Source: a virus
Strand: one strand, 5' to 3'
Length of the DNA: 21,331 nt
IMG/VR virus record: IMGVR_UViG_3300006919_000566
Span: 1 to 21,331 of that record
Each line of letters opens with the position of its first letter. Position 1 is the stretch's first letter. This document shows, piece after piece, positions 1,460-21,213 of this stretch. The notes beneath the pieces were generated by a model. That model searched no databases and was not told where the DNA came from. It saw only the letters and a program-made list of their open reading frames with translations. The position numbers and the translations under genes were made by a program.

Positions 1460-2257
1460 ATGACATCTTGGATAAAAGATTACGTTGCAGATTTGTCTAT
1501 TGCACCCGAAGGTCAGTTGCGTATGGACTGCCCTGCGTGTGGCAAAAAGAATACGTTTAGCGTTAGTGACACGGGTGGTGAACGCCTGTGGTTTTGTTTT
1601 CACGCTGACTGTGGTGTTCGCGGTCGGACAGGATTCCGAATCAGGAAAGACGCACCCTACCATCCTTTGCTATCCAAAGTAAAGCCCACACCAAGACCCG
1701 ACATTCACACGGGGTCTTTCGAGTTGCCCGATACTTTCGTGGCACTGTCCCGCGAACACGCGGCAGAATCTTACGTAAAAAAAGTAAATGCCTACCCTGC
1801 GTACCAAGAAGGTCGCGCAGACATTCGCTACGACTTTCGCATGAACCGTGTGGTCTATCTTGTAAAGGATGGTCGCAAGGTTATCGATGCGGCGGGTCGC
1901 ACCCTAACAAACCAAAAACCAAAATGGTGGAGATATGGAAAATCAGGTTATCCTTTCGTTTGCGGCACAGGACGTGTCGCTATTCTTTTGGAAGATTGTG
2001 CTAGTGCTTGCTGTGTATCTGATATTTTTTCGGGGATAGCCCTGCTGGGTACTAACCTATTGGACAGCCACTTGCCTATCCTAAAAAGATATGATAAAGT
2101 AATTGTGGCGTTGGATAAAGACGCAACAGCAAAAGGTTTGCAACTGGTAAGAAAACTACAGGGTCACATGCCCGCCAGCTTGCTTGTATTGAACAAAGAT
2201 TTGAAGGATATGAACAACGATGAACGAGAACGAACACTCGAAAAATACGTCCCTTGA
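1460..2257 (+). CDS. DNA primase (zinc ribbon plus Toprim), T7 gp4A-like
   Basis: Synthesises RNA primers for lagging-strand replication. The N-terminus carries a zinc ribbon with C24-x2-C27 and C46-x4-C51 for template recognition. The C-terminal half is a Toprim domain: the catalytic Glu is E178 (ILLEDCASA) and the metal-binding pair is D219-K-D221 (ALDKDATAKG). At 265 aa it corresponds to the primase half of T7 gp4 without the helicase. The helicase follows as a separate gene overlapping by 38 bases in another frame, so the two presumably associate after translation. Start chosen for AAAGGAAA upstream. First gene of the replication operon. Confidence 0.9.
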   Translation: MTSWIKDYVADLSIAPEGQLRMDCPACGKKNTFSVSDTGGERLWFCFHADCGVRGRTGFRIRKDAPYHPLLSKVKPTPRPDIHTGSFELPDTFVALSREHAAESYVKKVNAYPAYQEGRADIRYDFRMNRVVYLVKDGRKVIDAAGRTLTNQKPKWWRYGKSGYPFVCGTGRVAILLEDCASACCVSDIFSGIALLGTNLLDSHLPILKRYDKVIVALDKDATAKGLQLVRKLQGHMPASLLVLNKDLKDMNNDERERTLEKYVP

Positions 2258-3458
2258 ACTACAGGTTCTGGGCTACATACTAAATAAGGACTTTTATGGT
2301 CGGGTAAAGAACATTGTTACCCGTGACATGTTCGAGGGACGGTACGCTACCGTGTTCGATGCAATCACACACGGGCATAAGAAGTACGATGTGACCTTGC
2401 ACCCTCGACAGCTATCGGCAATCATTGCAGACCGTAACCCTGCCACGCCCCTGTCGGCTATGGAAGAACTGTACGGTATAGTTGACAACCTACCCACCCA
2501 CATGTCCGATGCTGGTGACCTAGAGATGGACATTGTGCGTAACTTCTGGGTGCGTGACCGTGCGCGGCAGATTGGTGAGAAAGCTATAGCAATCTTTACA
2601 GGGGAGTCCGAACACTTTGGCGAACTCAAGACCCTAATTGATATGGTAGAGGATGGTCGGATGTCGGACAAAACTACCTATAGTGAAATGGACAAAGGCT
2701 TTGAACAACTAATGGAAGAGGAGACAGGCGAACCCGACTTCCCTTTTGATTGGGACTTGTTGTCCGAACATTTGTCAGGAACGGATAGGGGCAACCTTGG
2801 TATTATCTTTGCCCGTCCAGAGGTAGGCAAGACCACCTTCTGTGCCTTCATTGCCGCAGGGTACATACGGCGACAGCAAAAGGTGGTGTATTGGGCTAAC
2901 GAGGAACCTGCTGAAAAAATCAAGCTGAGAATTATACAGTCAATATTCCGACTGACCCGTGAAGAGATGCGTCAACAATCTGACACACTCAAGATGCGGT
3001 ACGCCGAAGAGATAGAACCGTACCTGACTGTCATGGATTCTGTGGGTACATCTATGGATGAATTAAATGATTATGCCCAGCTAAACGAACCCGATGTAAT
3101 GTTCTGTGACCAGCTAGATAAATTCAGGGTTGCTGGTGAGTTCAACCGTGGTGACGAACGCCTCAAGGAAACCTATGTGCTTGCGCGGGAGATTGCCAAG
3201 CGTAACAAACTTATGGTATGGTCGGTCAGTCAGGCCAGCTTCGAGGCACATGACCGTCAGTTCATTGACTATGCTATGTTGGATGGTTCGCGTACAGGTA
3301 AGGCTGGTGAAGCAGATGTCATCATAGGCATTGGCAAGACAGGAACATCAGAAGAAGAGAATACGGTACGACACATTTGTATTTCAAAAAATAAACTTAA
3401 CGGGTGGCACGGTATGTTTACAAGCCACATCGATGTGCAAAGAGGAGTGTATTACTAA
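2220..3458 (+). CDS. Replicative DNA helicase, DnaB/gp4 type
   Basis: Ring-shaped RecA-fold helicase that unwinds the fork, driven by NTP hydrolysis. The N-terminal ~150 residues resemble the DnaB N-terminal primase-contact domain (SLELQVLGYIL, then helices). The motor domain has Walker A ARPEVGKT (198-205), which has Ala rather than Gly at its first position as DnaB does, a NEEP element with E228, Walker B VMFCD ending at D297, and the polar H3 strand WSVSQAS (334-340). The DGSRTGKAGEADVIIGIGK segment (355-373) carries the arginine-finger region. ATG 2220 follows AAGGA by 11 bases. It partners the separate primase upstream. Confidence 0.92.
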   Translation: MNENEHSKNTSLELQVLGYILNKDFYGRVKNIVTRDMFEGRYATVFDAITHGHKKYDVTLHPRQLSAIIADRNPATPLSAMEELYGIVDNLPTHMSDAGDLEMDIVRNFWVRDRARQIGEKAIAIFTGESEHFGELKTLIDMVEDGRMSDKTTYSEMDKGFEQLMEEETGEPDFPFDWDLLSEHLSGTDRGNLGIIFARPEVGKTTFCAFIAAGYIRRQQKVVYWANEEPAEKIKLRIIQSIFRLTREEMRQQSDTLKMRYAEEIEPYLTVMDSVGTSMDELNDYAQLNEPDVMFCDQLDKFRVAGEFNRGDERLKETYVLAREIAKRNKLMVWSVSQASFEAHDRQFIDYAMLDGSRTGKAGEADVIIGIGKTGTSEEENTVRHICISKNKLNGWHGMFTSHIDVQRGVYY

Positions 3459-3607
3459 TGAGCAATCACGAGAACGAAGAAATACTAGAACGCATATACG
3501 AAGAAGAGTATGAACGCTTGCGCAAAAGGTATCCACAGTTTAACGAGGCTTCTATAGAAATATTAGCCAAATACTTTGCAGGTAAGATATTTGGGGAAAT
3601 GGAATGA
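3458..3607 (+). CDS. Hypothetical protein, 49 aa
   Basis: Highly charged, mostly helical protein (MSNHENEEILERIYEEEYE, then RLRKRYPQFNEASIEILAKYF). It starts with a TAATG overlap on the helicase stop and has AGAGGAG about 12 bases upstream. A longer in-frame opening at 3404 would run inside the helicase gene without a ribosome binding site and is rejected. Its TGA overlaps the exonuclease ATG. No family recognised; its place between helicase and exonuclease suggests an accessory replication role, which is an inference only. Confidence 0.68.
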   Translation: MSNHENEEILERIYEEEYERLRKRYPQFNEASIEILAKYFAGKIFGEME

Positions 3608-4191
3608 ACGTACTAACCCTAGACGTGGAGACCACGCACAAAGAACGTGCCAACGGTAGGACAACACCCCTGCCTTACTTTGGAAACTCTTTGGTTTCAA
3701 TAGGTTACAAGTGGTTAAACGAGGAGCGGGTATTCTACGACTGCTACTACCACAGCACTGAGCCACCCACGGACAGTGCCGCCCAAGATATGCAAACGGC
3801 ACTCAACTACGCTGACGTTATCATTGGACAAAACTTTAAGTTTGACTTAAACTGGCTACGTGAATGTGGCTTTACATACGAGGGACATATCTATGACACG
3901 ATGGTTTCGGAATATATACTGGCGAGGTCGCAGAGATGGCCTCTGGGACTTGCTTCTCTTGCAGAAAAGTATAGTGACGTACAAAAGCAGAAGGACGTTA
4001 TCACACCGTATTTCAAGGAAGGTAAAACGTTTTATGACATTCCTTGGGATGTGATTAAAGAATACGGCATTGCCGATGTACTATCTACAGAGCAAGTAGC
4101 ACTTGCACAACTCGAAGCCTTTGGCACTACATTTGAGGAACTATTCAATGAACAACCGGACTCTCTTGCCCACTTTGCGTCTGTCGCTTGA
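3604..4191 (+). CDS. 3'-5' exonuclease (DnaQ/PolA-type proofreading domain) as a separate protein
   Basis: Corresponds to the proofreading domain of T7-like family A polymerases but is its own gene of 195 aa. Exo I is LDVETT with D7 and E9. Exo II is IIGQNFKFDLNWL with N77 and D81. Exo III is EYGIADV, giving Y154-x3-D158, so all four metal-binding carboxylates and the catalytic Tyr are present. The C-terminal linker (FEELFNEQ) is what normally leads into the polymerase thumb, but the frame then runs to a stop 44 bases into the polymerase gene. Starts ATGA-coupled to the 49-aa gene with GGGGAA upstream. It likely acts in trans with the polymerase. Confidence 0.88.
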   Translation: MNVLTLDVETTHKERANGRTTPLPYFGNSLVSIGYKWLNEERVFYDCYYHSTEPPTDSAAQDMQTALNYADVIIGQNFKFDLNWLRECGFTYEGHIYDTMVSEYILARSQRWPLGLASLAEKYSDVQKQKDVITPYFKEGKTFYDIPWDVIKEYGIADVLSTEQVALAQLEAFGTTFEELFNEQPDSLAHFASVA

Positions 4192-5695
4192 CATGACAAA
4201 AGTTCTTGCCCGTATGGAGCAGAACGGAATCAAAGTAAATAAACAAACCCTAGACGAAATCAGAGAACAGTACCAGACCGAACTGTTCACCCTAGAGCGG
4301 CGGCTAACCGAACTCGCCGCGAACGCAATGGGGGATACCCCTATCAACCTAGCCAGTGCAGATGACCGCTCCAAGCTGTTCTACTCCTGCGCCGTACGCA
4401 ACAAGTCCCGTTGGGCAAGCATCTTCAACTTGGGGATGGAATTGCGGGGTGCAGGTATGAAGCCCAAGCGGCGAACCCGCATGTCCCGTCAAGACTTCAA
4501 CAGGTACGTAATCAACGAGACAGACGTGCTGTACAAGACCAAGGGCAGTCAGTGTACCGATTGCGGGGGCAAGGGACGCTACACAGCCCGCAAGAAGGAC
4601 GGGACACTAGGTAAGGCTATCAGAATCTGCAAGCCCTGTGGTGGCAAGGGAGTGCGCTACGAATCGACTGGTGAGGTAGCGGGCTTCAAACTCATACCCC
4701 GTGATGTTTACAGCACTGCGGCGGCTGGCTTCAAGACGGACAAGGAAACCTTGGAACAGGTTTTGTCTAGCCTACGAGGTGAAGCCCGCGAGTTTGCTGA
4801 GTCGTACATACGGTACAGTGCGGTTCGCACCTATGTCGGTTCCTTCCTCGAAGGAATGGAAAACAACATGGATGCCAACGGTATTATCCACACAGAGTTT
4901 ATGCAGTGTGTGACAGCAACCGGACGACTATCCAGCCGCAACCCAAACTTCCAGAACATGCCACGGGGTAACACGTTCGAGATTCGCCGTGCCGTGGAAA
5001 GTAGGTTCGAGGGCGGGTCTATCCTAGAAGGGGACTCCTCGCAGTTGGAGTTCAGGGTTGCTGGCTTTCTTGCGGGGGACGAGACAGTCATGTCTGATGT
5101 GCAGGAAGGCACAGACGTACACAGTATCACCGCAGGTATTATCGGGTGTACCAGACAAGAAGCCAAGGCGCACACATTCAAACCCTTGTACGGTGGCACC
5201 AGTGGCACTGATGACCAGAAAAGATATTACAACGCTTTCAAGACCAAGTATGCACAGGTTGCTGAGTGGCAAGACGGTATGCAAAAACATGCGGTAATGC
5301 ACAAGTACATCCAGTTACCATCAGGGCGGCAGTATGCCTTTCCGTATGCTAGGTGGACTGATTGGGGTACGGCCACAGACCGCACTGCTATATGTAACTA
5401 CCCTGTGCAGGGATTTGCCACGGCTGACCTTCTTCCGATGGGCTTGGTGTTGCTGGATAGGGAAATGCGCCGCCAAGAAATGAAGTCAGTTATCTGTAAT
5501 ACCGTACACGATTCTATTGTCCTAGATGTTTATCCGGGTGAGGAAGAGAAATGTGTTGACGTGCTATCTAGCTGTATGCTAATGATAAATGAAGAAGCAC
5601 AAAAAAGATACGGGGTCTTCTATGACATGCCTATAGGAATAGAATTAAAAATAGGTAAAAATTGGCTTGACTCCGAAGTTATATTAGAAGTATAA
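4148..5695 (+). CDS. Family A DNA polymerase with DnaJ-like zinc-finger insert, no exonuclease domain
   Basis: Replicative polymerase, 515 aa. Start taken at 4148, seven bases after GAGGAA, instead of an upstream in-frame ATG at 4103. The thumb begins at residue 10 (LRLSLDMTKVLARMEQNGI). Polymerase motifs are complete: TATGRLSSRNPNFQN (256-270), motif A DSSQLEFR (296-303; Tyr of the usual DYSQIELR is Ser, steric-gate Glu E301 kept), motif B R336...K340...F344...Y348-G, motif C VHDS (453-456). Phe344 matches E. coli Pol I Phe762. About 100 residues are inserted in the thumb (roughly 82-185) with C136-x2-C139-GGKG and C161-x2-C164-GGKG, a DnaJ-type zinc finger. HMO-2011 phage polymerase is known for a partial DnaJ domain. 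Confidence 0.93.
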   Translation: MNNRTLLPTLRLSLDMTKVLARMEQNGIKVNKQTLDEIREQYQTELFTLERRLTELAANAMGDTPINLASADDRSKLFYSCAVRNKSRWASIFNLGMELRGAGMKPKRRTRMSRQDFNRYVINETDVLYKTKGSQCTDCGGKGRYTARKKDGTLGKAIRICKPCGGKGVRYESTGEVAGFKLIPRDVYSTAAAGFKTDKETLEQVLSSLRGEAREFAESYIRYSAVRTYVGSFLEGMENNMDANGIIHTEFMQCVTATGRLSSRNPNFQNMPRGNTFEIRRAVESRFEGGSILEGDSSQLEFRVAGFLAGDETVMSDVQEGTDVHSITAGIIGCTRQEAKAHTFKPLYGGTSGTDDQKRYYNAFKTKYAQVAEWQDGMQKHAVMHKYIQLPSGRQYAFPYARWTDWGTATDRTAICNYPVQGFATADLLPMGLVLLDREMRRQEMKSVICNTVHDSIVLDVYPGEEEKCVDVLSSCMLMINEEAQKRYGVFYDMPIGIELKIGKNWLDSEVILEV

Positions 5696-5729: not shown

Positions 5730-6587
5730 ATGGGAACAGAACTCCAAACACTAAATGACGAACTAGACAATATGGTAGCAGCATTCGATACGGATGATGC
5801 CGAAACTTTGATGAAGGCAAGCGGTCAAAAGTCTGAGGACGGTGACGCACCAAAGATGGGACTGCCCCGCTTGACTATTAACTACGATACAGAAACAGAT
5901 GATGGCCTACCGCTCAAGCGTGGTTCGTGGCGTATCTGGAATGGTAACGCTCCTGTGTATGCAGAGTCAGTTAACATTCGTCCACTCATGCGTACATACG
6001 AGTGGTCACTGTGGGATGCCGAAGAGCGTAAGTTCGCGGCTAAGTCTGTGCAAAAGCCTTCTATGTCAGGGGACTTTCCTGATTCTGTAGGTGGCAACAA
6101 GTGCGGACGACTATCACGCCAAGAAGAAGAAGGTCTGTCTTCGGATGACCCCCGCCTTCTTTTGAGTAAGTCAGTTGCATGTAACCAAGTTATCTATGGT
6201 ATCTTGGATGCGCCTAACGCAACCCTTGCTGATGGCTCACCTTCTCCTATCGAAGGTATGGCATTTGTGGCGTACTTTAAGCGTTCGGGTTTTATGCCTG
6301 TGCGTGACTTCATTGAGAACAACCTCACCCGTAAGAAAATTCTTATGCAAAAAGCAGTGGTCGAGATGTCCACTGAAAAGCACAAGAAGGGTAGCGTACT
6401 TTACTGGACACCTAAGTTGTCTTTGGTAAAAGAGGTTAGCATCACTGATGATGATAAAGACCTGATGAAGAAGTTTGCTGACACTGTTCGTGGCCACAAC
6501 GAATCTGTTATGGGCGAGTTCAAAGAGGCAAACAAAGCAAACATGAGTGCGGATGATGCAGACTTAGCCAGTCGTCTGGCAGGTTAA
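5730..6587 (+). CDS. Hypothetical protein, 285 aa; possible single-stranded DNA-binding protein
   Basis: Soluble protein with no enzymatic motif that I can identify. The N-terminal ~45 residues are acidic and helical (TLNDELDNMVAAFDTDD), followed by a beta-rich core (LPRLTINYDTE, GSWRIWNGNAPVYAESVNI, GMAFVAYFKRSGF, KGSVLYWTPKLSLVKEV), and the C-terminus is helical and partly acidic (NMSADDADLASRLAG). A beta core with flexible acidic ends, located between polymerase and recombination nucleases and behind its own promoter for high expression, is what a phage ssDNA-binding protein would look like; T7 gp2.5 sits in comparable company. This role is inference from context and composition. GAGAGGAC precedes ATG. 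Four intergenic bases or fewer separate it from the nuclease gene. Confidence 0.85.
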   Translation: MGTELQTLNDELDNMVAAFDTDDAETLMKASGQKSEDGDAPKMGLPRLTINYDTETDDGLPLKRGSWRIWNGNAPVYAESVNIRPLMRTYEWSLWDAEERKFAAKSVQKPSMSGDFPDSVGGNKCGRLSRQEEEGLSSDDPRLLLSKSVACNQVIYGILDAPNATLADGSPSPIEGMAFVAYFKRSGFMPVRDFIENNLTRKKILMQKAVVEMSTEKHKKGSVLYWTPKLSLVKEVSITDDDKDLMKKFADTVRGHNESVMGEFKEANKANMSADDADLASRLAG

Positions 6588-11893: not shown

Positions 11894-12097
11894 CTACATG
11901 CCCATCTTTTTCTTGGGGTCCATCATGGGATTGGCTGACATGGCCATGTTTCCCGTTTGCATAGGGCTACGAACCATAGAGCCGTAGGCATATCCCTTGC
12001 GTTTGGCTTTGCCGCCATAGGACATGTAGCCCATGTTGTTGCGGACTTTCTTGGGTAGCATGCCCAAGCCTTTATTGTTCTTCGGTACTGGTTTCAT
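11894..12097 (-). CDS. Small basic Met/Gly-rich protein, 67 aa
   Basis: Begins MKPVPKNNKGLGMLPKKVRN, continues NMGYMSYGGKAKRKGYAYG, and ends in a Met/Lys-rich tail (PMMDPKKKMGM). The K-GL-x-x-LPxxVRNxMGYM-x-x-GG pattern recurs in short basic proteins near the virion genes of T7-like marine phages (recalled, not searched). Ten methionines in 67 residues is unusual. Start taken at 12097, with GGAG nine bases upstream; an earlier in-frame start at 12130 is less well placed. It overlaps the end of the 1559-aa gene by 26 bases and is the last gene before the terminator. Function unknown; a virion-associated DNA-binding role is possible. Confidence 0.72.
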   Translation of the reverse strand: MKPVPKNNKGLGMLPKKVRNNMGYMSYGGKAKRKGYAYGSMVRSPMQTGNMAMSANPMMDPKKKMGM

Positions 12098-15000
12098 TTT
12101 CACTTGACTCCGTGTTGAGATATTGTTCATTCATCATCTGCTGTCCTTTGCGGACTACATCTGTAGCTACAAATTCTAATAGCATAGTATCTAGGGTTTC
12201 TAGTTCTGTGGGTGTTATTAATTTAGGGAACCGTATCATTTTGGATACTATCCGGGCTGCATCTTTATTTTGCACAGCAAGTAGTAAAGCATCTGAACTG
12301 TTCTTTTCCATCAGTCGAATAGCCATTTCCGAACCCACGTAGAGGGGACTAACCATGCCCCTAGAAATGTTGTAGGCACGACTCAGGACTTCGTTTGTAG
12401 ACATGCCTCTGACCATGCCTTCTGCTGTAGCATAGACTGCAGATTTTGCCACAGTGTAATCCACTATGTCTGTCAGATATTCAATCTGTTCCTTGTCCAT
12501 TATTTGTTGTAGGTTTTTAACTACAGTAGGGTCAGATAGGTCTTGCAAAAGGGACGCTGCATCGGTAAGCACCTTGCCTGTCATAAGTTCCCCTCGCAAC
12601 CCTCTCTGAGTAGCTGCGACCGTAGAGTACCCGCCCAAGTCTATCATGCCCTCGTAGGTCAAGGAAACAATAGCGGCGTCATACATTTCTTTTGCTTCTT
12701 TAGGACTTATTTCACCGCTTCTTTTCATAGTGGCCATGAACACGTCTTTTAAATCTTCCAAGCTTTCGGTTGCTTTTGAACCTAAGAACGTGTCGTAGAA
12801 GTTCCTTGCGTCGAGGGTTCCTGAAATGTGCTGTAAGTATTTTAACCCTGCTAGTTCACGGGCTTCGTCAATCTTAGCACGGTCTGTTACCCCCGCTACT
12901 GTGTTTTTAAAATCAACCTTGAACTCCTCAAATTGTTTTACAAACCTGCCGCCTTCACCTATTTCATTTACAATATCTTTTTCTTCAGAGAGCATACGGG
13001 AAACATCAGGGAAGCTTACTTCCTCTACGGAGATACTTCCATCTGGATTCTTGACACGAGCCTTTACTTTAGTATATTCGTTCAATATATCTATGTTTGT
13101 GGACTGCTCAAAGCTGTAGCCCATGCCCGGCCTAACGCCACCTGCCCCAGCGCGAGGCTTGAAAGACTCTAGGTAATCGTACGCCCACCCATCGAATATA
13201 CCCTCTTCCATTATCCTTTGTGCAAGTTGAAAGTTCTTTAAGCCTTCCTCAGTGGTCAAGTCGAATATCACTTCGGGCTTTCCATCTACTACTGTCATAG
13301 TATCTGCGAAAGCGTAAGAAGCGTCGGTCACTGCCTGTTGAAGTTTATCTAGGTGTTTTTGCCTATCTCTTCCACCCCTCATAGCTTTACCCATAGGGGT
13401 AGTTATACCATCCCACACAGACAAGGGGTCTACGTTCTTGTAATAATACTTGAAGAAACCAAACTCAGCTTGGCCTACTCTTTCTGCACCTTCCCTAGAC
13501 TTGTAAAGTTCATAGGTCATCATGCCTTTTCTGTTTGCATCTCCCACAGTACCCCGGTATCTGTCCCGTGAAGCTTTCAAAATATCAAAGCCTTCTTTGT
13601 CAGCAGTTTCCATAACTTCGTCTACAAGTTTTTCAAACTTTGTGTACTCACGGCTGACTGCAGGGCTGCTAATTTTATAGCCATAGTCCCGGAAAGCCTT
13701 TCGCATTTCTTCAGCTTCTTCTAAAGTTGCCTTTGCAAATATATTAAAGGAACCTGATTTGTGGGCTATGAGACCTATTTCTAGGTTACTTTTAGTTGCA
13801 ACTTCTTCTGCTGTTGCTATACCCGCAGATATAATTCCTTGGGTCAATACTTCACGAGAATCAGGGCCTAGTTCATCAAATGCCCTGACGACCATATTAT
13901 TAAATACTTTCTGTGCGCGTCTTCCCAGCACACCTGAAAAGAAGGTTCCCTGCGGACCGAACAACAGTGCTATGTCGCTCTCTTCCGATAGCTTCACCAT
14001 TTCTTCTACAAGGGGAGCCATATCTATATCAGGTCGTGTTATGTCTTCGCGTTGCATGTACGCACGAAAAGGCGCGTAAGATTCGCCTCGCTGTTGTTCC
14101 ATGAGTTCGGCTCTGGCTTCAAAGAAATCTTCTGCTAGTCTAGCTAATGCGCCTCTGTGTAAAGTGCGATTGTCTCGCAAAGCAGCAACCTTGGATGTTC
14201 TTTTGGTAGTAGCCTCAATCCAATTCCTGCTAGTTTCCTCAAGGTTCTGCCTAGAGATTGACCCAGAGTAAAAGGGTTCACTCATTTGGGAAACTTTACC
14301 TTCTACTTTCTCAATTCTATGTTTAGCTTCTAACACCTGTTCCATGTAGTTTGCCGGAAGGTCTTGGAATACATCTGCTGCCGCTGCTTGCTCTACATTT
14401 TTTACAATCTCTTTTAATTGCAGGAAGTCTTCTTTTATATTATCTTCCGCCCGCTCTAACTGTGCGCGTGTTTGCCGCACTAGAAGACGAATGCTTTCTT
14501 TGGAGCCTTCCTTTGCTTTAGACAGCGCGTGTTGCTCGAAATTATCTAAGGCTTTTTGAGAGGCTACGGTCTGGTTCCACAGTTCTTCCCCTGCCTTTGT
14601 TACGTCGTTTAAACCATCTCTGCCAATCTTTTTTATATCGAACCTTGATAACGTGGCCTGATAAGATGCGACTAGAGGGGCAAGTCCCGTACTTTCCCCG
14701 AAGGAAAGAGTAAATAATTTGCGGGCTTCTGCCTTTTGGTCGTCCGGGAATCCTGCAATTAGCCTGTCTGTTAGGTCTGTGTAGCCCTGTATGCTATTAT
14801 AAAGTGCTTGCTTTTCTTTCACACCTGCCTTATCGACCATCTTAAATGCGTGTTCGACTGCCAGACGTTCTTGGTAAGACATTCTCTTACCACCGTTCTT
14901 AGGCATGTACACTAATTTCTCGTAGTCTTCTAACGTAGTGTCCTTAAATGTAAGCTTGTAAAACGCAGCGTCTATAGATGCACCAATGCCACCTGTATAT

Positions 15001-16751
15001 CTTATGGCTTTGGTTCCTACAAACCCTGCCGCTCCCATCCCTACTTTTGCAGTTCCTTTGGCTACTTTAGTTAAGGGCCTGTTGAGTATCAAAGACCCTA
15101 CCATACCTGCTAATTCTGACGTTTCACCGTCCATGCCCCACACGCCTGTAAGAACTTCACGTCCGGCCAACCCGCCTAGACCTATCACTACTTCCTGACC
15201 CATGACTTGTGTAGCATAGGGACTTAGTTTGTTTTTAATTGTGTTGCGTATTTGAAGCCTACCAAGATTGTCCATCTCTGACTTTAATATTTTGGCAGTT
15301 GTTGAATTTCCTTCACCCGCAAGTTCTAGGACTTCTAGTTCCCTGCGAATATCCTTCTGACGAATACTTGCCTGTCTCATTTGAGAGTTGAGGTCTTTGG
15401 TGAAAAATCCCAAGTCTAGCATTTGGGTGTCTACTTTTAAGACTATATCATTTTCAGCAGCAAAAGCTGGCATGTCCCGTAGTCGAACATTTTTAAAACG
15501 TGGGTCGGTCTTTTTTATGCGGGCTAGGTTTTTAAGGTCGTCGATTGCTGTTGCGCTTTTTGTTCTTCCTAGTATGCCCCCTGTGAGCATGCCCTCACCA
15601 ACAAGAGTTGTTGCTTGTGATATTTTGTTAGCCTCTATGAAAGACAACTCTATAAGGTCATAGGCAGCTTCATCAGATATGAAGTTACGCTCTACCTTAG
15701 TACCGTCTGTGCCTACAGATTCATAAACTATTGCGTCGTGTTGTTGCTGGGTTATCACGTCGTTTTCTAAGTCTTCGGCTAGAAGTTTTCTAATTTCGTT
15801 GTTAAAGTGTCTGGCTGCAGTCGGCCCCGGAAGTACGGTTTCTATAGTGTCCAGATAGTTTTCCATTCTGTCACTACGGAACTGCTCATCTACTGCCCAT
15901 TCATCACCCAGCGGGGTTCCTTTTCTCATAGAGCGTCCTAACGCCCTGCCAAAAGAACTTGATAGCGTATCCATGTACGGAAGTATGGTGACCATACCCC
16001 TGCTTGCTTCTGTCAATCTAATATTTAGATTATCAAAAAACTTTCCTGTATCGTAGTGGTCTACAAAGTATTGGCGAACTACTGTGTCTATTTCTGAGTT
16101 ACCTGTATCAACCAGTGGCTTCAACAGGTTGTTTACCTTCATACGATTTTCTGCGTATAATTTTGCCCGTTTTTGTTCGGAGGGGTCTTCAATATAATCT
16201 GTAACGACCTTGGTAGCAGAGGGGTCGGTAAAGGCTATGTCAACTTCCTGCTTGCTAGATTCTTTTAGGGCTGAATCCACATCTAGTTTGTACTGAAAAT
16301 CTGCCGCAAAATCAGGGTCTGACTTTAACAGGGGCAAAATCTCAGGGCCATAGTCTTCTTCACCTTTGGCAGATTGTAGCGTAACCACCTCTCCCGCATT
16401 TAACCGTGACAAGGTTTGTTCGGGTGTGACAGGAGTTTCCCGCAAAGCCTTTTGTTCTAGGCTTCTTTTAGCGGAAGCTTCTAGGGTTTTGAATCTGGGC
16501 TGTACAGGTATGACACCATCTGTTTTTACTATATCCACACCTACATCACTCACACCAACTTCAGGACGTGCGGGTATTGCGCCGATGCTTATACGAGGCA
16601 AGCCTGTTTCCACATCCGTTGTAGGGGGAGAATCATCTAACTTTATATTAGGGTCTGACGCGACAGCTTCGGCAAGACTCTTCTTCTGAGGCTCGTCAGC
16701 AGAAACAGGCTGGTCTTCGTCTAACAATACAGGAGATGCTTGTTCAGCCAT
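12072..16751 (-). CDS. Giant internal virion-type protein, 1559 aa (T7 gp16 analogue by position and size)
   Basis: Very large, mostly helical protein. The first ~120 residues are acidic, Pro/Thr-rich and probably disordered. A Gly/Ala-rich region with hydrophobic stretches lies at about 517-590 (VVIGLGGLAG, GMVGSLIL, GMGAAGFVGTKAI), and coiled-coil-like helices follow around 735-800 (QTRAQLERAEDNIKEDFLQL). I found no lytic transglycosylase motif or other enzyme signature. Its size, its place at the end of a run of 450-, 184- and 685-aa genes and the amphipathic segments suggest an internal protein ejected with the DNA to cross the envelope, like T7 gp16 (1318 aa). That is inference from context. 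AAGGA precedes ATG by 10 bases. Confidence 0.88.
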   Translation of the reverse strand: MAEQASPVLLDEDQPVSADEPQKKSLAEAVASDPNIKLDDSPPTTDVETGLPRISIGAIPARPEVGVSDVGVDIVKTDGVIPVQPRFKTLEASAKRSLEQKALRETPVTPEQTLSRLNAGEVVTLQSAKGEEDYGPEILPLLKSDPDFAADFQYKLDVDSALKESSKQEVDIAFTDPSATKVVTDYIEDPSEQKRAKLYAENRMKVNNLLKPLVDTGNSEIDTVVRQYFVDHYDTGKFFDNLNIRLTEASRGMVTILPYMDTLSSSFGRALGRSMRKGTPLGDEWAVDEQFRSDRMENYLDTIETVLPGPTAARHFNNEIRKLLAEDLENDVITQQQHDAIVYESVGTDGTKVERNFISDEAAYDLIELSFIEANKISQATTLVGEGMLTGGILGRTKSATAIDDLKNLARIKKTDPRFKNVRLRDMPAFAAENDIVLKVDTQMLDLGFFTKDLNSQMRQASIRQKDIRRELEVLELAGEGNSTTAKILKSEMDNLGRLQIRNTIKNKLSPYATQVMGQEVVIGLGGLAGREVLTGVWGMDGETSELAGMVGSLILNRPLTKVAKGTAKVGMGAAGFVGTKAIRYTGGIGASIDAAFYKLTFKDTTLEDYEKLVYMPKNGGKRMSYQERLAVEHAFKMVDKAGVKEKQALYNSIQGYTDLTDRLIAGFPDDQKAEARKLFTLSFGESTGLAPLVASYQATLSRFDIKKIGRDGLNDVTKAGEELWNQTVASQKALDNFEQHALSKAKEGSKESIRLLVRQTRAQLERAEDNIKEDFLQLKEIVKNVEQAAAADVFQDLPANYMEQVLEAKHRIEKVEGKVSQMSEPFYSGSISRQNLEETSRNWIEATTKRTSKVAALRDNRTLHRGALARLAEDFFEARAELMEQQRGESYAPFRAYMQREDITRPDIDMAPLVEEMVKLSEESDIALLFGPQGTFFSGVLGRRAQKVFNNMVVRAFDELGPDSREVLTQGIISAGIATAEEVATKSNLEIGLIAHKSGSFNIFAKATLEEAEEMRKAFRDYGYKISSPAVSREYTKFEKLVDEVMETADKEGFDILKASRDRYRGTVGDANRKGMMTYELYKSREGAERVGQAEFGFFKYYYKNVDPLSVWDGITTPMGKAMRGGRDRQKHLDKLQQAVTDASYAFADTMTVVDGKPEVIFDLTTEEGLKNFQLAQRIMEEGIFDGWAYDYLESFKPRAGAGGVRPGMGYSFEQSTNIDILNEYTKVKARVKNPDGSISVEEVSFPDVSRMLSEEKDIVNEIGEGGRFVKQFEEFKVDFKNTVAGVTDRAKIDEARELAGLKYLQHISGTLDARNFYDTFLGSKATESLEDLKDVFMATMKRSGEISPKEAKEMYDAAIVSLTYEGMIDLGGYSTVAATQRGLRGELMTGKVLTDAASLLQDLSDPTVVKNLQQIMDKEQIEYLTDIVDYTVAKSAVYATAEGMVRGMSTNEVLSRAYNISRGMVSPLYVGSEMAIRLMEKNSSDALLLAVQNKDAARIVSKMIRFPKLITPTELETLDTMLLEFVATDVVRKGQQMMNEQYLNTESSENETSTEEQ

Positions 16752-16752
16752 G

Positions 16753-18810
16753 CTATTTATTTCCTTTGTCCGCTATTTCTCTGCGTGTTGATGGATTGCC
16801 TTCAGCATCAAGGTATGCGGGGCCAGTCCCACCTGTCTTGACGAAGCCAGTTCCAAAAGGCCTATAATTATTCATGTCCACTTGGGACGGCGGGGTTTCT
16901 TTTTTTTCTGTAGTTTTATTAGGGGCGTAAGTTCCTGAACCTACAAGAGAGGTCTCCAACATACGGTCTGCGCGGATAGCACGGGCAGTTGTGGCATCAA
17001 TTTTTGTACCCACCGCAGACACTGTTGCTAATACGCTGTTACGTTGCATGTTAGTTCCAAATTCGTCTAGCAACAAACCAAGCTGTCGTTGCACCGACTG
17101 TGCATCACCCAGCAAAGCACCACCAAGTCTCTTTAACTGTATTTCAAAATCTTGGTTAGACAGACGACCTGACGGGTCAATCGCACGAGCCATACGTGCT
17201 GCAAGTGCAAGTTTCAGAGCGTCAGCTTCTGATATATTTGCTAATGTAGAACCTTCAGATAACCTAAATTCACCATTATCAATAAGTTTTTGAACGCTTT
17301 CGTTAATGGATTGTACAGTTGTTTCGCTACCATCCGGGTTTTTCTTGTAGTTACCCTCAAATTCTTCTCCCGATGAAACCACGTCTTTAAGTACACCACC
17401 TAGCTGTTTTGCCTGTGCGCCAGCACCATACATCACTCTTTTGACTTCTCGTGCAAAACCTTGCTCGTCTTTTAGGACAGTTGCTTCTAGTACAGAAAGT
17501 TGCTTTAACATGTCTACAGTTTCTCTGGAATACTTAAATCCATCCTTTATGGCTGTGATTTCCGCATTTGTGTAGCCCAGTTCGTCCATCATAAACTGGC
17601 GACCATTAACAGTAACGCCCGTCTTTCTAGTCGTGGGTTTGTATAGTCTGCCCCCCGTAGGTTGAACAAGGAATACTTCATCTGTTGGTAACATATAACC
17701 CAAGGCAACAGCCATACCGTACCTGTCGTCGCCATACTTTTCATTTAAGAAGCTAACAAGTTCTTCTTTCTTTTTAGGGGAACCTGCCAAAGGATTTGCA
17801 AGAATTTCCCCGAACCCGCGCTTTTGCATTTCAAGCACGTTGTTTAGCATTGAGTATTGTGCATCTGCTATTTCCGCATCGCTCATATTCATGTATATGT
17901 CGCCGCCAAATTCTTCGGAAGTAGGTATATCCCGGAAGGCTTTGAAACTTTCAACAAACTGACCGGGGGTCATGCCATGCTTGGCAGATAGGTCATTGAT
18001 GTGGCTAAGATTGTCATTCGATATATTGCGAAGATATTGTTTTTTATTACCGTCTTCATCCACTGTGATTGTAAAGGCAATAGGAGTACGTCCGTCTGGT
18101 GTATTAGCTAACGCCTTGTTTACTTCTGTTTCTGCAGCCTCTCGGTCCTCATGTAAACCGCCCATAGAATCTATCAGTCTATTTACATTTGTGTAGCGTT
18201 TTATTGATGTAGTAAGGACTTCTCCGGGCTGTAATGCTTTGTCCGGAATCAGTCGATACCCCTCTATGATATCTTGTTCCGCACCCATTAGGTAATCTCT
18301 AACTGCGGCAAAGGTAGACTCATTTTGACTTATGCTTGAAACTACGCTATCGAAAAACTCAGGGTTGGCAAGCTGCCTTTCTATATTCTCCATCTTAATA
18401 GTACCCTGATTGTACACACCTTCGGTACCTTTCAAGTCCGGGTTTTTGAACTCTACTTGTCCTAATTTAAAATGGGTGTTTACCTTCGACATAGCATTGG
18501 CAGTATTTAGCATTTCATCCGTAATTCCGGGGAACATGCCTCTATTCTGCTGTAACCATGCGTTCTTCTGTTCATCGGGAAGAGCCTTAAAAAACTCTAA
18601 AGTCTGCTGCCTTTTTTTGTTCTCCGCTGATACTTTAGCAACAGCAACAGCTTTATCCGTTTCTAACCCAGAGGTAAACGTCTGTTCCTTTTTAAAAATA
18701 TCAAACGCACGATTTTCTTCGTCTATCTTTTTTTGTTCTTCTGCTCTTTCTCGTGCAACGGCGTTGGCTCCCTTGAGAACCCCAGTGGCGAATGCAATAC
18801 CAATTCCCAT
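16753..18810 (-). CDS. Virion protein, 685 aa (possible T7 gp15 analogue)
   Basis: Starts MGIGIAFATGVLKGANAVAR, a short hydrophobic/Gly segment, then a charged coiled-coil-like region (about residues 20-75, EEQKKIDEENRAFDIFKKEQ). The rest is helical with no catalytic motif recognised. The C-terminus is low complexity (Pro/Gly/Thr). Length and position directly before the 1559-aa gene parallel T7 gp15 (747 aa) next to gp16, so an internal/ejected virion protein is the best inference. GGGGGAGAG precedes ATG, and the start shares one base with the stop of the 184-aa gene. The downstream gene begins one base after its stop. Confidence 0.85.
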   Translation of the reverse strand: MGIGIAFATGVLKGANAVARERAEEQKKIDEENRAFDIFKKEQTFTSGLETDKAVAVAKVSAENKKRQQTLEFFKALPDEQKNAWLQQNRGMFPGITDEMLNTANAMSKVNTHFKLGQVEFKNPDLKGTEGVYNQGTIKMENIERQLANPEFFDSVVSSISQNESTFAAVRDYLMGAEQDIIEGYRLIPDKALQPGEVLTTSIKRYTNVNRLIDSMGGLHEDREAAETEVNKALANTPDGRTPIAFTITVDEDGNKKQYLRNISNDNLSHINDLSAKHGMTPGQFVESFKAFRDIPTSEEFGGDIYMNMSDAEIADAQYSMLNNVLEMQKRGFGEILANPLAGSPKKKEELVSFLNEKYGDDRYGMAVALGYMLPTDEVFLVQPTGGRLYKPTTRKTGVTVNGRQFMMDELGYTNAEITAIKDGFKYSRETVDMLKQLSVLEATVLKDEQGFAREVKRVMYGAGAQAKQLGGVLKDVVSSGEEFEGNYKKNPDGSETTVQSINESVQKLIDNGEFRLSEGSTLANISEADALKLALAARMARAIDPSGRLSNQDFEIQLKRLGGALLGDAQSVQRQLGLLLDEFGTNMQRNSVLATVSAVGTKIDATTARAIRADRMLETSLVGSGTYAPNKTTEKKETPPSQVDMNNYRPFGTGFVKTGGTGPAYLDAEGNPSTRREIADKGNK

Positions 18811-19364
18811 TATTCACTCTCCCCCATATCCAAGAAGTTCTTTTCCTGCGGTTCACGCGGGGCTAACCCTGCCCGAATCTGGGCGTTTACTTTTTCATTC
18901 ACAAACTCGAACATGCGTGGGTTGTTTTCCTTCATCATACGGAAGAATGTTTCGTCGTCCATTTCGCCTTCGTCCATTGCATCGTCATTCTCGAACAGGC
19001 GGTAAGGGACATCCTCGTCCTCTGCCATGTCCGCAATGAACAGACCCAAGGCGGGCTTGATAAGCACGGCTACATCCGGTGTGAACTTGCCCTCTTGGAA
19101 TCCCTGCAACAGGAAGCCTTCCACAAGCACTTCCACAGAAACACCCACCATAAGCAACTTCATCAGTTCGCCGCGAACCTTCGGCTTCTTGAGTCCGGCA
19201 ATGGCGCGTTCGAGGGCAGCTTCCGGGTCAACATCCCGTGGAGGCTTACCCCAAGGCCAGCGCGAGTTATCTTGTGTTAGGGAATGCCCCGGCGGTGCGT
19301 AGGCAAATCGGTCCATGTTTTCCACAGAACCCCGGTTCAAAATCTGGGCATCAGTTTCAGACAT
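18810..19364 (-). CDS. Hypothetical virion-region protein, 184 aa
   Basis: Contains SRWPWGKPPRDVDPEAALER (34-53), a hydrophobic helical middle (LMKLLMVGVSVEVLVEGFLLQGF, VLIKPALGLFIADMAE) and a strongly acidic stretch (YRLFENDDAMDEGEMDDETFF) before a PREPQEKNFLD tail. I recall related proteins among virion-region genes of HMO-2011-like and other marine phages, without a defined role. The hydrophobic stretches are interrupted by charged residues, so they look like buried helices more than membrane spans. Begins two bases after the upstream stop. An assembly or connector function is only a guess. Confidence 0.82.
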   Translation of the reverse strand: MSETDAQILNRGSVENMDRFAYAPPGHSLTQDNSRWPWGKPPRDVDPEAALERAIAGLKKPKVRGELMKLLMVGVSVEVLVEGFLLQGFQEGKFTPDVAVLIKPALGLFIADMAEDEDVPYRLFENDDAMDEGEMDDETFFRMMKENNPRMFEFVNEKVNAQIRAGLAPREPQEKNFLDMGESE

Positions 19365-19366
19365 AC

Positions 19367-19855
19367 TTACGTACTTTCTTTTCGGACGGTTGCGGGTTTC
19401 GCCTTGGTGGCGGTAGGTAACTTGGGTGTTTCTAAGCCGACTGTACGGCGTCCCTGCCGGATGTTTCTGTTTACCATTATGTTATTTTGCATGCGGCCCA
19501 TGTGTGGGTTCGCACTTGTACGGTTGATAAACTTTTGCAAGGCACTGGTGATGTCTGGGTTGCGAAGTCCCACGGGGTTGCGGAGTGCCTCTAGTCCGGC
19601 TGCTCTAGGGGCTTGTCCCCTATACCGTGTAATCTTGGGGGGTGTGCGCTTGGTAGTTTCAAAAGGGTCCCGGTCACCATCTTTATCCGTCATAGATGTA
19701 TAGACTTTCGCACCCTTTTGGATAAACCCAAAGATGTCGCCAGAGTCGCTTTTAGGGGAGCCACCATAATCATCGTGGTAGCTGTCCTCGCCACCCGAAA
19801 CCCAGCCTACGGCCTCATCTAGCCAATCACCTATCTTACTAAAACTAAATGACAT
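19367..19855 (-). CDS. Hypothetical virion-region protein, 162 aa
   Basis: Starts MSFSFSKIGDWLDEAVGWVS, an amphipathic helix, followed by a Gly/Ser/Asp-rich linker (GGEDSYHDDYGGSPKSDSG), a second short helix (FGFIQKGAKVYTSM), and a basic Pro/Arg/Asn-rich C-terminal half ending ATVRKEST. It is low in hydrophobic core and likely partly disordered. The start at the ATG (19855) is preferred over an upstream TTG because it follows the 450-aa stop by five bases and has purine-rich AAAAGAA upstream. An amphipathic N-terminus with a basic tail would suit a small DNA-bound or ejected virion protein; the function is unknown. Confidence 0.78.
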   Translation of the reverse strand: MSFSFSKIGDWLDEAVGWVSGGEDSYHDDYGGSPKSDSGDIFGFIQKGAKVYTSMTDKDGDRDPFETTKRTPPKITRYRGQAPRAAGLEALRNPVGLRNPDITSALQKFINRTSANPHMGRMQNNIMVNRNIRQGRRTVGLETPKLPTATKAKPATVRKEST

Positions 19856-19860
19856 TTCTT

Positions 19861-21213
19861 TTAACTTTCTGCTGCCCAACGTGCAAGCCAGTTACCAATT
19901 CCGGACGCCAGCTTATCTTTTTGGTCCTGTTCGTACAGTTCGTTAGCGTTTGCAAACTGCATAGCCATCGTGCCGATATCGTGTTGGCGTCCCAATGCAC
20001 TTTCCGACTTCTGGAAGTTCCAAGAAGCGTTGTCCCTGTACTGTTGCCACAGATTGTTCATGGCTGTTTGACTTGCGTTGTAGGCGTTTTGTACGTTGAT
20101 ACGATTTGATTCGTTTTGCAGGGCTGTGTTAGCCGTGTTGATTTCCCTGCGCCACACAGTGTTCGACTGGTCAATCGCAAACCCCATGTTTGCATTGAAC
20201 TTGTCGCGGGAGTCAGCAACCTGCTGGTTGAACTGTGACATTGCGTTTGCCTCGCCCGTGTTGAACTGGCGCATCGCTGCCACACGGTTGGAGTTGGCTG
20301 TCTCGACCTGCGAACTCAATTCGGCAAAGAACTCGTCCACCTGTAATTCGTTCTTGGCGTTGAATTGCTGACGTGCATTCTCTTCTGCACCATCCTTGAA
20401 CAAGCCTTGAACTAGGCTACTATATGTAAGTGTATCACTTTTTTGTTTATTGTCAAGGTTTTTCAAATCTACAGACAGCAGGGCTTGTGCTTCTGTGACT
20501 GCACCTTGTAGACGTGCAGACAGGTTAGCCTTGTCCATTGCGGCGACTGTGGCTGCATTGGTGAGGGCGGTCTGTTGCTTGTTGTTGAGGTTTTGTAATT
20601 GAATGGCCGCGTACTTGTTTGCATCAGCGGCTGCAATCTGAACACCCGATTCCATCAGGGACTGTGTGATTGCTGCTGCGGCCATAGAAGATGCACCCAA
20701 GCCACGGGCTTGCATAATTGCACTGACCTTGCGAACCTGTGGTGCTGCCCACGCTGGCATAGGTGCGCCAGACTCTAGGCTAGACATGATTTCACCTAGC
20801 TGATACTGGACTGTAGCCTTGGGGTCGAGTTGTTCCGTGGCCGCAACTGCCATAGACTCAGGGGATACCGTTCCCTCGACTCCCGTCATGTCCACATAAG
20901 AGGTTGGCGGGGTTAGCTGGGCAGCTTGTGCGCCGCCCAAAGTTTCCAAACCGGGGGTGATTGCAGAAATCCCGGCAACCTGTCCCACGTCTGCGGCAGG
21001 AGCCACAGGGGCTGCGGGGGCTAGACCTGTTTCGGCTGCTGTGGTTACACCTGCTACGGGAGAAGGAGCCAGTTGCCCAGTTGTAGCTGCCATAGTGGTG
21101 CCAGTACCGACGGTCTGTTCCACGGGCTGTACTTCAGGAAGAACTGTTGTGCTACCCCCAGCCAATGCCCCCATCTCTGATTGGAGTTCCGCGTCTGTCT
21201 TTATAGCTGCCAT
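19861..21213 (-). CDS. Virion protein, 450 aa, with Ala/Pro/Thr-rich N-terminus
   Basis: The first ~110 residues are Ala, Thr, Val, Pro and Gly rich (APAAPVAPAADVGQVAG), a disordered tail. From about residue 130 onward the protein is helical and Ala/Gln/Asn rich (AADANKYAAIQLQNLNNKQQ, then repeated Asn/Gln/Ala helices such as QFNTGEANAMSQFNQQVADS), the composition of phage internal core proteins such as T7 gp14. It ends GIGNWLARWAAES. No enzyme motif. First complete gene of the minus-strand virion run, starting one base after the stop of the small membrane protein. The ejected-protein role is inferred. Confidence 0.84.
   Translation of the reverse strand: MAAIKTDAELQSEMGALAGGSTTVLPEVQPVEQTVGTGTTMAATTGQLAPSPVAGVTTAAETGLAPAAPVAPAADVGQVAGISAITPGLETLGGAQAAQLTPPTSYVDMTGVEGTVSPESMAVAATEQLDPKATVQYQLGEIMSSLESGAPMPAWAAPQVRKVSAIMQARGLGASSMAAAAITQSLMESGVQIAAADANKYAAIQLQNLNNKQQTALTNAATVAAMDKANLSARLQGAVTEAQALLSVDLKNLDNKQKSDTLTYSSLVQGLFKDGAEENARQQFNAKNELQVDEFFAELSSQVETANSNRVAAMRQFNTGEANAMSQFNQQVADSRDKFNANMGFAIDQSNTVWRREINTANTALQNESNRINVQNAYNASQTAMNNLWQQYRDNASWNFQKSESALGRQHDIGTMAMQFANANELYEQDQKDKLASGIGNWLARWAAES

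Follow-up and report, generated by a model that had tools for sequence, protein, structure and literature searches.

The family A DNA polymerase encoded in the window (the whole virus record analysed here, 21,331 bases) contains a long insert with a putative zinc module, which structure prediction and alignment place in the thumb between helices H1 and H2, and the associated 3'-5' exonuclease is encoded by a separate, overlapping gene. The insert is characterised by its position (from prediction and alignment), fold class, invariance and charge, and we propose, at about even confidence, that it gives the polymerase a zinc-stapled grip of its own on the primer-template duplex; zinc occupancy, DNA contact and an effect on processivity are what we infer. 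The presence of a zinc module in HMO-2011-type phages is known, and we found no account of the division of exonuclease and polymerase in this branch in the literature searched.

The polymerase ORF (4148-5695, + strand; 515 aa) matches Pfam DNA_pol_A (PF00476) over residues 196-507 (E 1.4e-47), its full AF2 model has a pLDDT of 88.6, and its top Foldseek matches are ternary complexes of Bacillus and Taq Pol I (E about 1e-19); the Pfam and Foldseek results identify the family A polymerase domain that characterises the HMO-2011-type DNA polymerases. The closest database relatives are isolates of the HMO-2011 type, which show 35-46% identity across 96-99% of the polymerase and belong to a dominant and globally distributed group of ocean viruses (PMC9038755). 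The flanking genes code for a Toprim primase, a DnaB-like helicase, a Cas4-type exonuclease, endonuclease I, MazG and a B12-type ribonucleotide reductase, and this gene set is the replication module as described for HMO-2011-type phages. Genes near the polymerase include:

1460-2257: primase
2220-3458: DnaB-like helicase
5730-6587: unassigned 285-aa protein

Four large ORFs on the minus strand at 12072-21213 (1559, 685, 184 and 450 aa) gave no PHROGs match at E 0.001. The HMO-2011-type phages, including HMO-2011, roseophages CRP-1/2/3/738 and pelagiphage HTVC033P, share with the window polymerase the same family A core and a partial DnaJ-type insert at the corresponding sequence position. The features of the thumb region, all on the + strand, are:

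4241..4330, +: thumb helix H, residues 32-61 (AF2 model, alignment)
4358..4384, +: thumb helix H1, residues 71-79 (AF2; aligned with T7 FNPSSRDHIQKKL and E. coli FNLSSTKQLQTIL)
4388..4738, +: insert lengthening the H1-H2 link, residues 81-197 (AF2 model, alignment, charge)
4532..4690, +: putative half-DnaJ zinc module, residues 129-181 (Pfam, PDB profile search, Foldseek)
4553..4576, +: putative zinc motif 1, CTDCGGKG, residues 136-143 with C136 and C139 (Cys conservation, predicted site)
4577..4627, +: basic beta hairpin between the motifs, with the turn K149-K150-D151-G152 (conservation, AF2 strands)
4628..4651, +: putative zinc motif 2, CKPCGGKG, residues 161-168 with C161 and C164 (Cys conservation, predicted site)
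4742..4771, +: thumb helix H2, residues 199-208 (AF2; aligned with T7 DDEVLEGV)

In the AF2 model H2 is followed by helix I at residues 211-239. The helix assignments agree with an alignment in which INLASADDRSKL (residues 66-77) pairs with T7 FNPSSRDHIQKK and E. coli FNLSSTKQLQTI, and TDKETLEQV pairs with T7 DDEVLEGV; the H1-H2 link is 117 residues long here and 17 in both E. coli Pol I and T7. Both CxxCxGxG motifs are flanked by INLASADDRSKL on one side and YSTAAAGF (188-195) on the other. The preliminary description of this DNA had recognised an insert with two such motifs and assigned it to the thumb, and both the motifs and the thumb placement are borne out by the structure prediction and alignment; its extent is about residues 81-197, not 82-185 as first given.

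The same description equated the location with the thioredoxin-binding place of T7, a correspondence that the alignment and predicted helices lead us to reject. In T7 gp5 the relevant elements are H1 (339-348), 6c (355-357), 6d (361-363), H2 (365-372) and I (376-400), and the thioredoxin-binding domain (TBD) precedes H1 (PMC9198812). The T7 segment thus comes before FNPSSRDHI, which forms helix H1, whereas the insert described here comes after the equivalent INLASADDRSKL helix. T7 gp5 is likewise a replicative phage polymerase of family A with a basic thumb insert (about 76-120 residues), but that insert sits between helix H and helix H1, lacks a zinc motif and depends on host thioredoxin; the insert in the window polymerase is not in the H-H1 position that defines the T7-type thioredoxin-binding polymerases. 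From the H1-H2 location it follows that the insert expands or replaces the short 6c-6d turn, the T7 thioredoxin site being another loop. Template DNA crosslinks to T7 gp5 at peptides 346-355 and 360-373, which together cover H1, 6c, 6d and H2 (PMC9198812).

Long links at this position are also found elsewhere, and those of the ICP2, Xaa phi31, Vibrio 526E57-1 and IMG/VR contig L335 polymerases are 54-119 residues long with no CxxC. Among the sequences compared, the H1-H2 link is thus a hot spot for phage inserts, and the predicted zinc site is a speciality of the HMO-2011-type phages among the sequences examined. Xanthomonas phage phi31 (L333:748-3105) and Vibrio phage 526E57-1 (L334:985-3342) have H1-H2 links of 105 and 119 residues, respectively, with no CxxC. 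In Vibrio phage ICP2_2013_A_Haiti (L085:1697-3790) the polymerase annotation is divided into two adjoining CDSs, broken between thumb and palm, and the H1-H2 link is a non-zinc one of 60 residues. ICP2-type polymerases were considered as zinc-carrying relatives and set aside because their H1-H2 link is non-zinc; one scan yielded two relatives. Stenotrophomonas phage StenR_269 (L331:309-575) has an annotated thioredoxin-domain protein close upstream of a family A polymerase, possibly its own processivity factor.

A tblastn search with the insert among 50,697 phage records found no zinc insert outside the HMO-2011-type phages. Scanning of genome contigs turned up seven loci in marine MAG records, which are probably phage contigs. 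The HMO-2011-type contigs L338, L340, L342 and L343, whose names and lengths are identical, are filed under two MAGs (Flavobacteriales TMED123 and Neomarinimicrobiota MED589), and are probably mis-binned phage contigs.

The description that fits the insert best is half of a DnaJ-type domain forming a zinc knuckle with a single predicted site, a label that derives from profile, Pfam, AF2 and Foldseek results. A PDB search with a profile of the insert picks up phage antiterminator Q (E 0.003) together with the Cys-rich repeats 2-3 of E. coli DnaJ (E 0.004), and matches to half-DnaJ knuckles are weak overall (E 0.003-0.008). Pfam DnaJ_CXXCXGXG is found in 86 of 87 members, and Anti-TRAP in 42 of the 87; the window polymerase itself matches the former with an E value of 0.00026, below the curated cut-off, over profile positions 13-55 of 65, corresponding to only two of the four repeats. 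Folded alone by AF2 the insert has a pLDDT of 91, and Foldseek places BSD2, DnaJA2, anti-TRAP, Q-lambda and UvrA at the top, with probabilities of up to 0.99 and weak E values (0.2-2.4). The phage Q antiterminators, anti-TRAP and BSD2 are alike in having CxxCxGxG-type knuckles, but these are not polymerase inserts. DnaJ/Hsp40 proteins have four CxxCxGxG repeats and two zinc sites, whereas the polymerase module has two repeats. Scans of the polymerase, the exonuclease and ten window proteins gave no J-domain match, and we reject identification as a true DnaJ/Hsp40 co-chaperone given the lack of a J domain with its HPD motif and the presence of half the repeats. The window polymerase does share the hallmark of the HMO-2011-type phages, a partial DnaJ domain that lies between the exonuclease and polymerase regions and carries two CXXCXGXG motifs. 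Such a 'partial DnaJ domain' is already published for HMO-2011-type polymerases (PMC9038755, PMC6918029), as the preliminary description noted, and its motifs are confirmed here; in the literature on these phages we found the module only under that name, with no structural placement or tested function.

Conservation of the module was evaluated in a 305-sequence alignment of IMG/VR relatives plus isolates, with relative loci taken as the best 80 per scan, so that distant relatives are under-sampled. C136, C139, C161 and C164 are Cys in all 305 aligned relatives, and each of the remaining seven Cys residues of the polymerase varies, being kept in 11-48% of the 305. Given this invariance, recurrence of the two motifs is judged from the sequences to be far beyond chance, and a single four-Cys site is supported by both the AF2 model and conservation. 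Four glycines (G141, G143, G168 and G179) are also invariant, on a par with catalytic residues in the alignment. Positions 130 and 149 are K or R in 100% of the 305 sequences, 181 in 98% and 150 in 80%, and D and E are nearly absent at 139-160 save for turn residues 151-153; the hairpin strands are predicted by AF2 at 144-148 and 154-160. Counted over residues 80-198, the window insert has 26 K/R and 10 D/E. Among 42 diverse members the net charge of the insert has a median of +12 (range +6 to +19) and is positive in all 42, compared with a median of -8 for the rest of the polymerase. Mean pairwise identity is 0.47 in the zinc module and 0.40 in the neighbouring helix H.

The exonuclease is encoded by its own ORF (3604-4191), which the preliminary description did not mention, and the junction is organised as follows:

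3604..4191, +: separate ORF for a 195-aa 3'-5' exonuclease (Pfam DNA_pol_A_exo1, E 7e-10)
4135..4140, +: Shine-Dalgarno-like GAGGAA ahead of the polymerase ATG (GAGG conservation)
4148..4191, +: 44 nt shared by the end of the exonuclease ORF and the start of the polymerase ORF (stop TGA 4189-4191)

The exonuclease has all three DEDDy motifs (D7xE9, N77FKFD and Y154GIAD) and falls in PHROGs under DNA polymerase / exonuclease subunit. The window and all 78 relatives whose junction is readable have separate, overlapping genes; many of these relatives are close to each other and do not amount to 78 independent observations. In all 78 the exonuclease TGA closes a 44-nt overlap with the polymerase ORF or stands at the corresponding position, and GAGG is at exactly 9-nt spacing to the polymerase ATG, though the ATG itself shifts between 11 and 14 codons before D15. 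The polymerase-frame codon at the exonuclease TGA is always CTT or TTT; all 68 Leu codons at this position are CTT, a codon used for about 18% of leucines across these ORFs, and the exonuclease stop therefore seems to be kept. The polymerase-frame LLPTLRLSL is also kept, with a pairwise identity of 0.56 compared to 0.45 for the more variable exonuclease tail. Because all 78 relatives are split in this way and retain the ribosome-binding site and ATG, we reject a frameshift or sequencing error at the junction. Programmed +1 frameshifting at the TGA is unlikely, as it would skip the conserved LLPTLRLSL; GCT-TGA is not a good slippery site. We read the split pair, from its gene arrangement, as a putative two-subunit polymerase with coupled translation.

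The split lineage forms one clade (SH-aLRT 100) that adjoins HTVC033P in the tree with a support of 92 and long branches. In HMO-2011, HTVC033P and CRP-738, exonuclease and polymerase are fused in a single gene of 678-716 aa, whereas here there are proteins of 195 aa and 515 aa; the two are thus not in one protein, unlike in the three isolates whose genes were examined. Because fusion is not a stated criterion of the published HMO-2011-type group, we keep the window polymerase as a variant member. No mention of a split exonuclease/polymerase was found in the HMO-2011-type literature, as far as searched. The published tree took only polymerases above 540 aa (PMC9038755), a threshold that would leave out the 515-aa split class.

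In the grip that we propose, a single-zinc half-DnaJ knuckle with a basic beta hairpin would stand in for the 6c-6d turn. C136, C139, C161 and C164 would hold one zinc ion and so keep the hairpin rigid, K130, K149, K150 and K181 would touch the DNA backbone behind the active site, and this contact would lower dissociation from DNA, giving processivity that does not depend on a thioredoxin-type partner. Of the two roles first suggested for the module, that of a processivity clamp is plausible from the AF2 model, conservation, charge and analogy with other thumb inserts, and that of binding a host chaperone found no positive support. According to the part of PMC10061031 that cites Minnick 1996, truncation of the E. 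coli Pol I thumb cuts processivity and fidelity. Thumb insert 1 of Pol theta makes a minor-groove contact and supports processivity (PMC9962433), and lysine-rich insertions of plant organellar polymerases have been modelled against dsDNA (PMC7699545). Pol theta insert 1 is likewise a thumb insert of a family A polymerase, but has 31 residues, belongs to a eukaryotic repair polymerase and has no zinc described (PMC9962433).

Basic thumb patches can also dock partner proteins, and this counts against a grip on DNA: the T7 TBD (net +6) binds the SSB tail (PMC7699545). The main rival is accordingly that the module docks another protein of the replisome (the DnaB-like helicase, the primase, the 285-aa protein at 5730-6587, or the exonuclease) in the manner of the TBD basic patches, which we regard as possible, if on the doubtful side. 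It draws on the T7 thumb insert mediating SSB binding (PMC7699545), and on an AF2-modelled PolA of a mobile element that is predicted to bind its SSB by the thumb tip (PMC10061031). Replication genes adjoin the polymerase in the window. Known half-DnaJ knuckles include protein-binding modules, which again tells against the grip. Both anti-TRAP and BSD2 bind proteins by such knuckles. The module is, however, equally conserved in relatives with a fused exonuclease, and so is not specific to holding a separate exonuclease; moreover, the window helicase ends in HIDVQRGVYY, which is not an acidic tail, and no partner was identified. The C terminus of the T7 gp4 helicase is an acidic tail.

The zinc could alternatively be a structural staple only, in a long loop that is passive or lineage-specific and has no role in processivity. 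The H1-H2 hot spot, with its long CxxC-free links in ICP2, L335, phi31 and 526E57-1, is consistent with this, but the four Cys and G141, G143, G168 and G179 are as invariant as catalytic residues and net positive charge is kept in all representatives, and we consider a mere staple unlikely. Sequence likeness to the DnaJ Cys-rich region has suggested a chaperone-type role, in which the module recruits the DnaK/DnaJ system of the host or works on unfolded proteins, and an analogy to lambda replication is drawn in the HMO-2011-type literature (PMC9038755). Against this, only two of the four repeats are present, the same half-domain occurs in non-chaperones (Q and anti-TRAP), and the absence of a J-domain match among the proteins scanned makes a DnaJ/DnaK-style role unlikely; we rate the chance of such a role as very small. 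Four-Cys zinc sites can be redox-active, as in DnaJ and Hsp33, and a redox-sensitive switch, in which oxidation of the four Cys frees the zinc and tunes replication, is similarly improbable.

Returning to the zinc-stapled grip, placement in a thumb loop near the template DNA turns what had been a chaperone guess into a directly testable question of polymerase processivity. The zinc module would be a further kind of thumb add-on, beside the T7 thioredoxin site and Pol theta insert 1, and the separate exonuclease gene would make this a natural two-piece family A replicase. Taken jointly, these features raise the tentative prospect of a family A replicase that is self-sufficient in processivity, by way of a basic, zinc-stapled finger that has grown out of the 6c-6d turn, with no recruited partner, and that, in a branch for which we found no isolate, may be a two-subunit enzyme made from overlapping, separately started exonuclease and polymerase genes.
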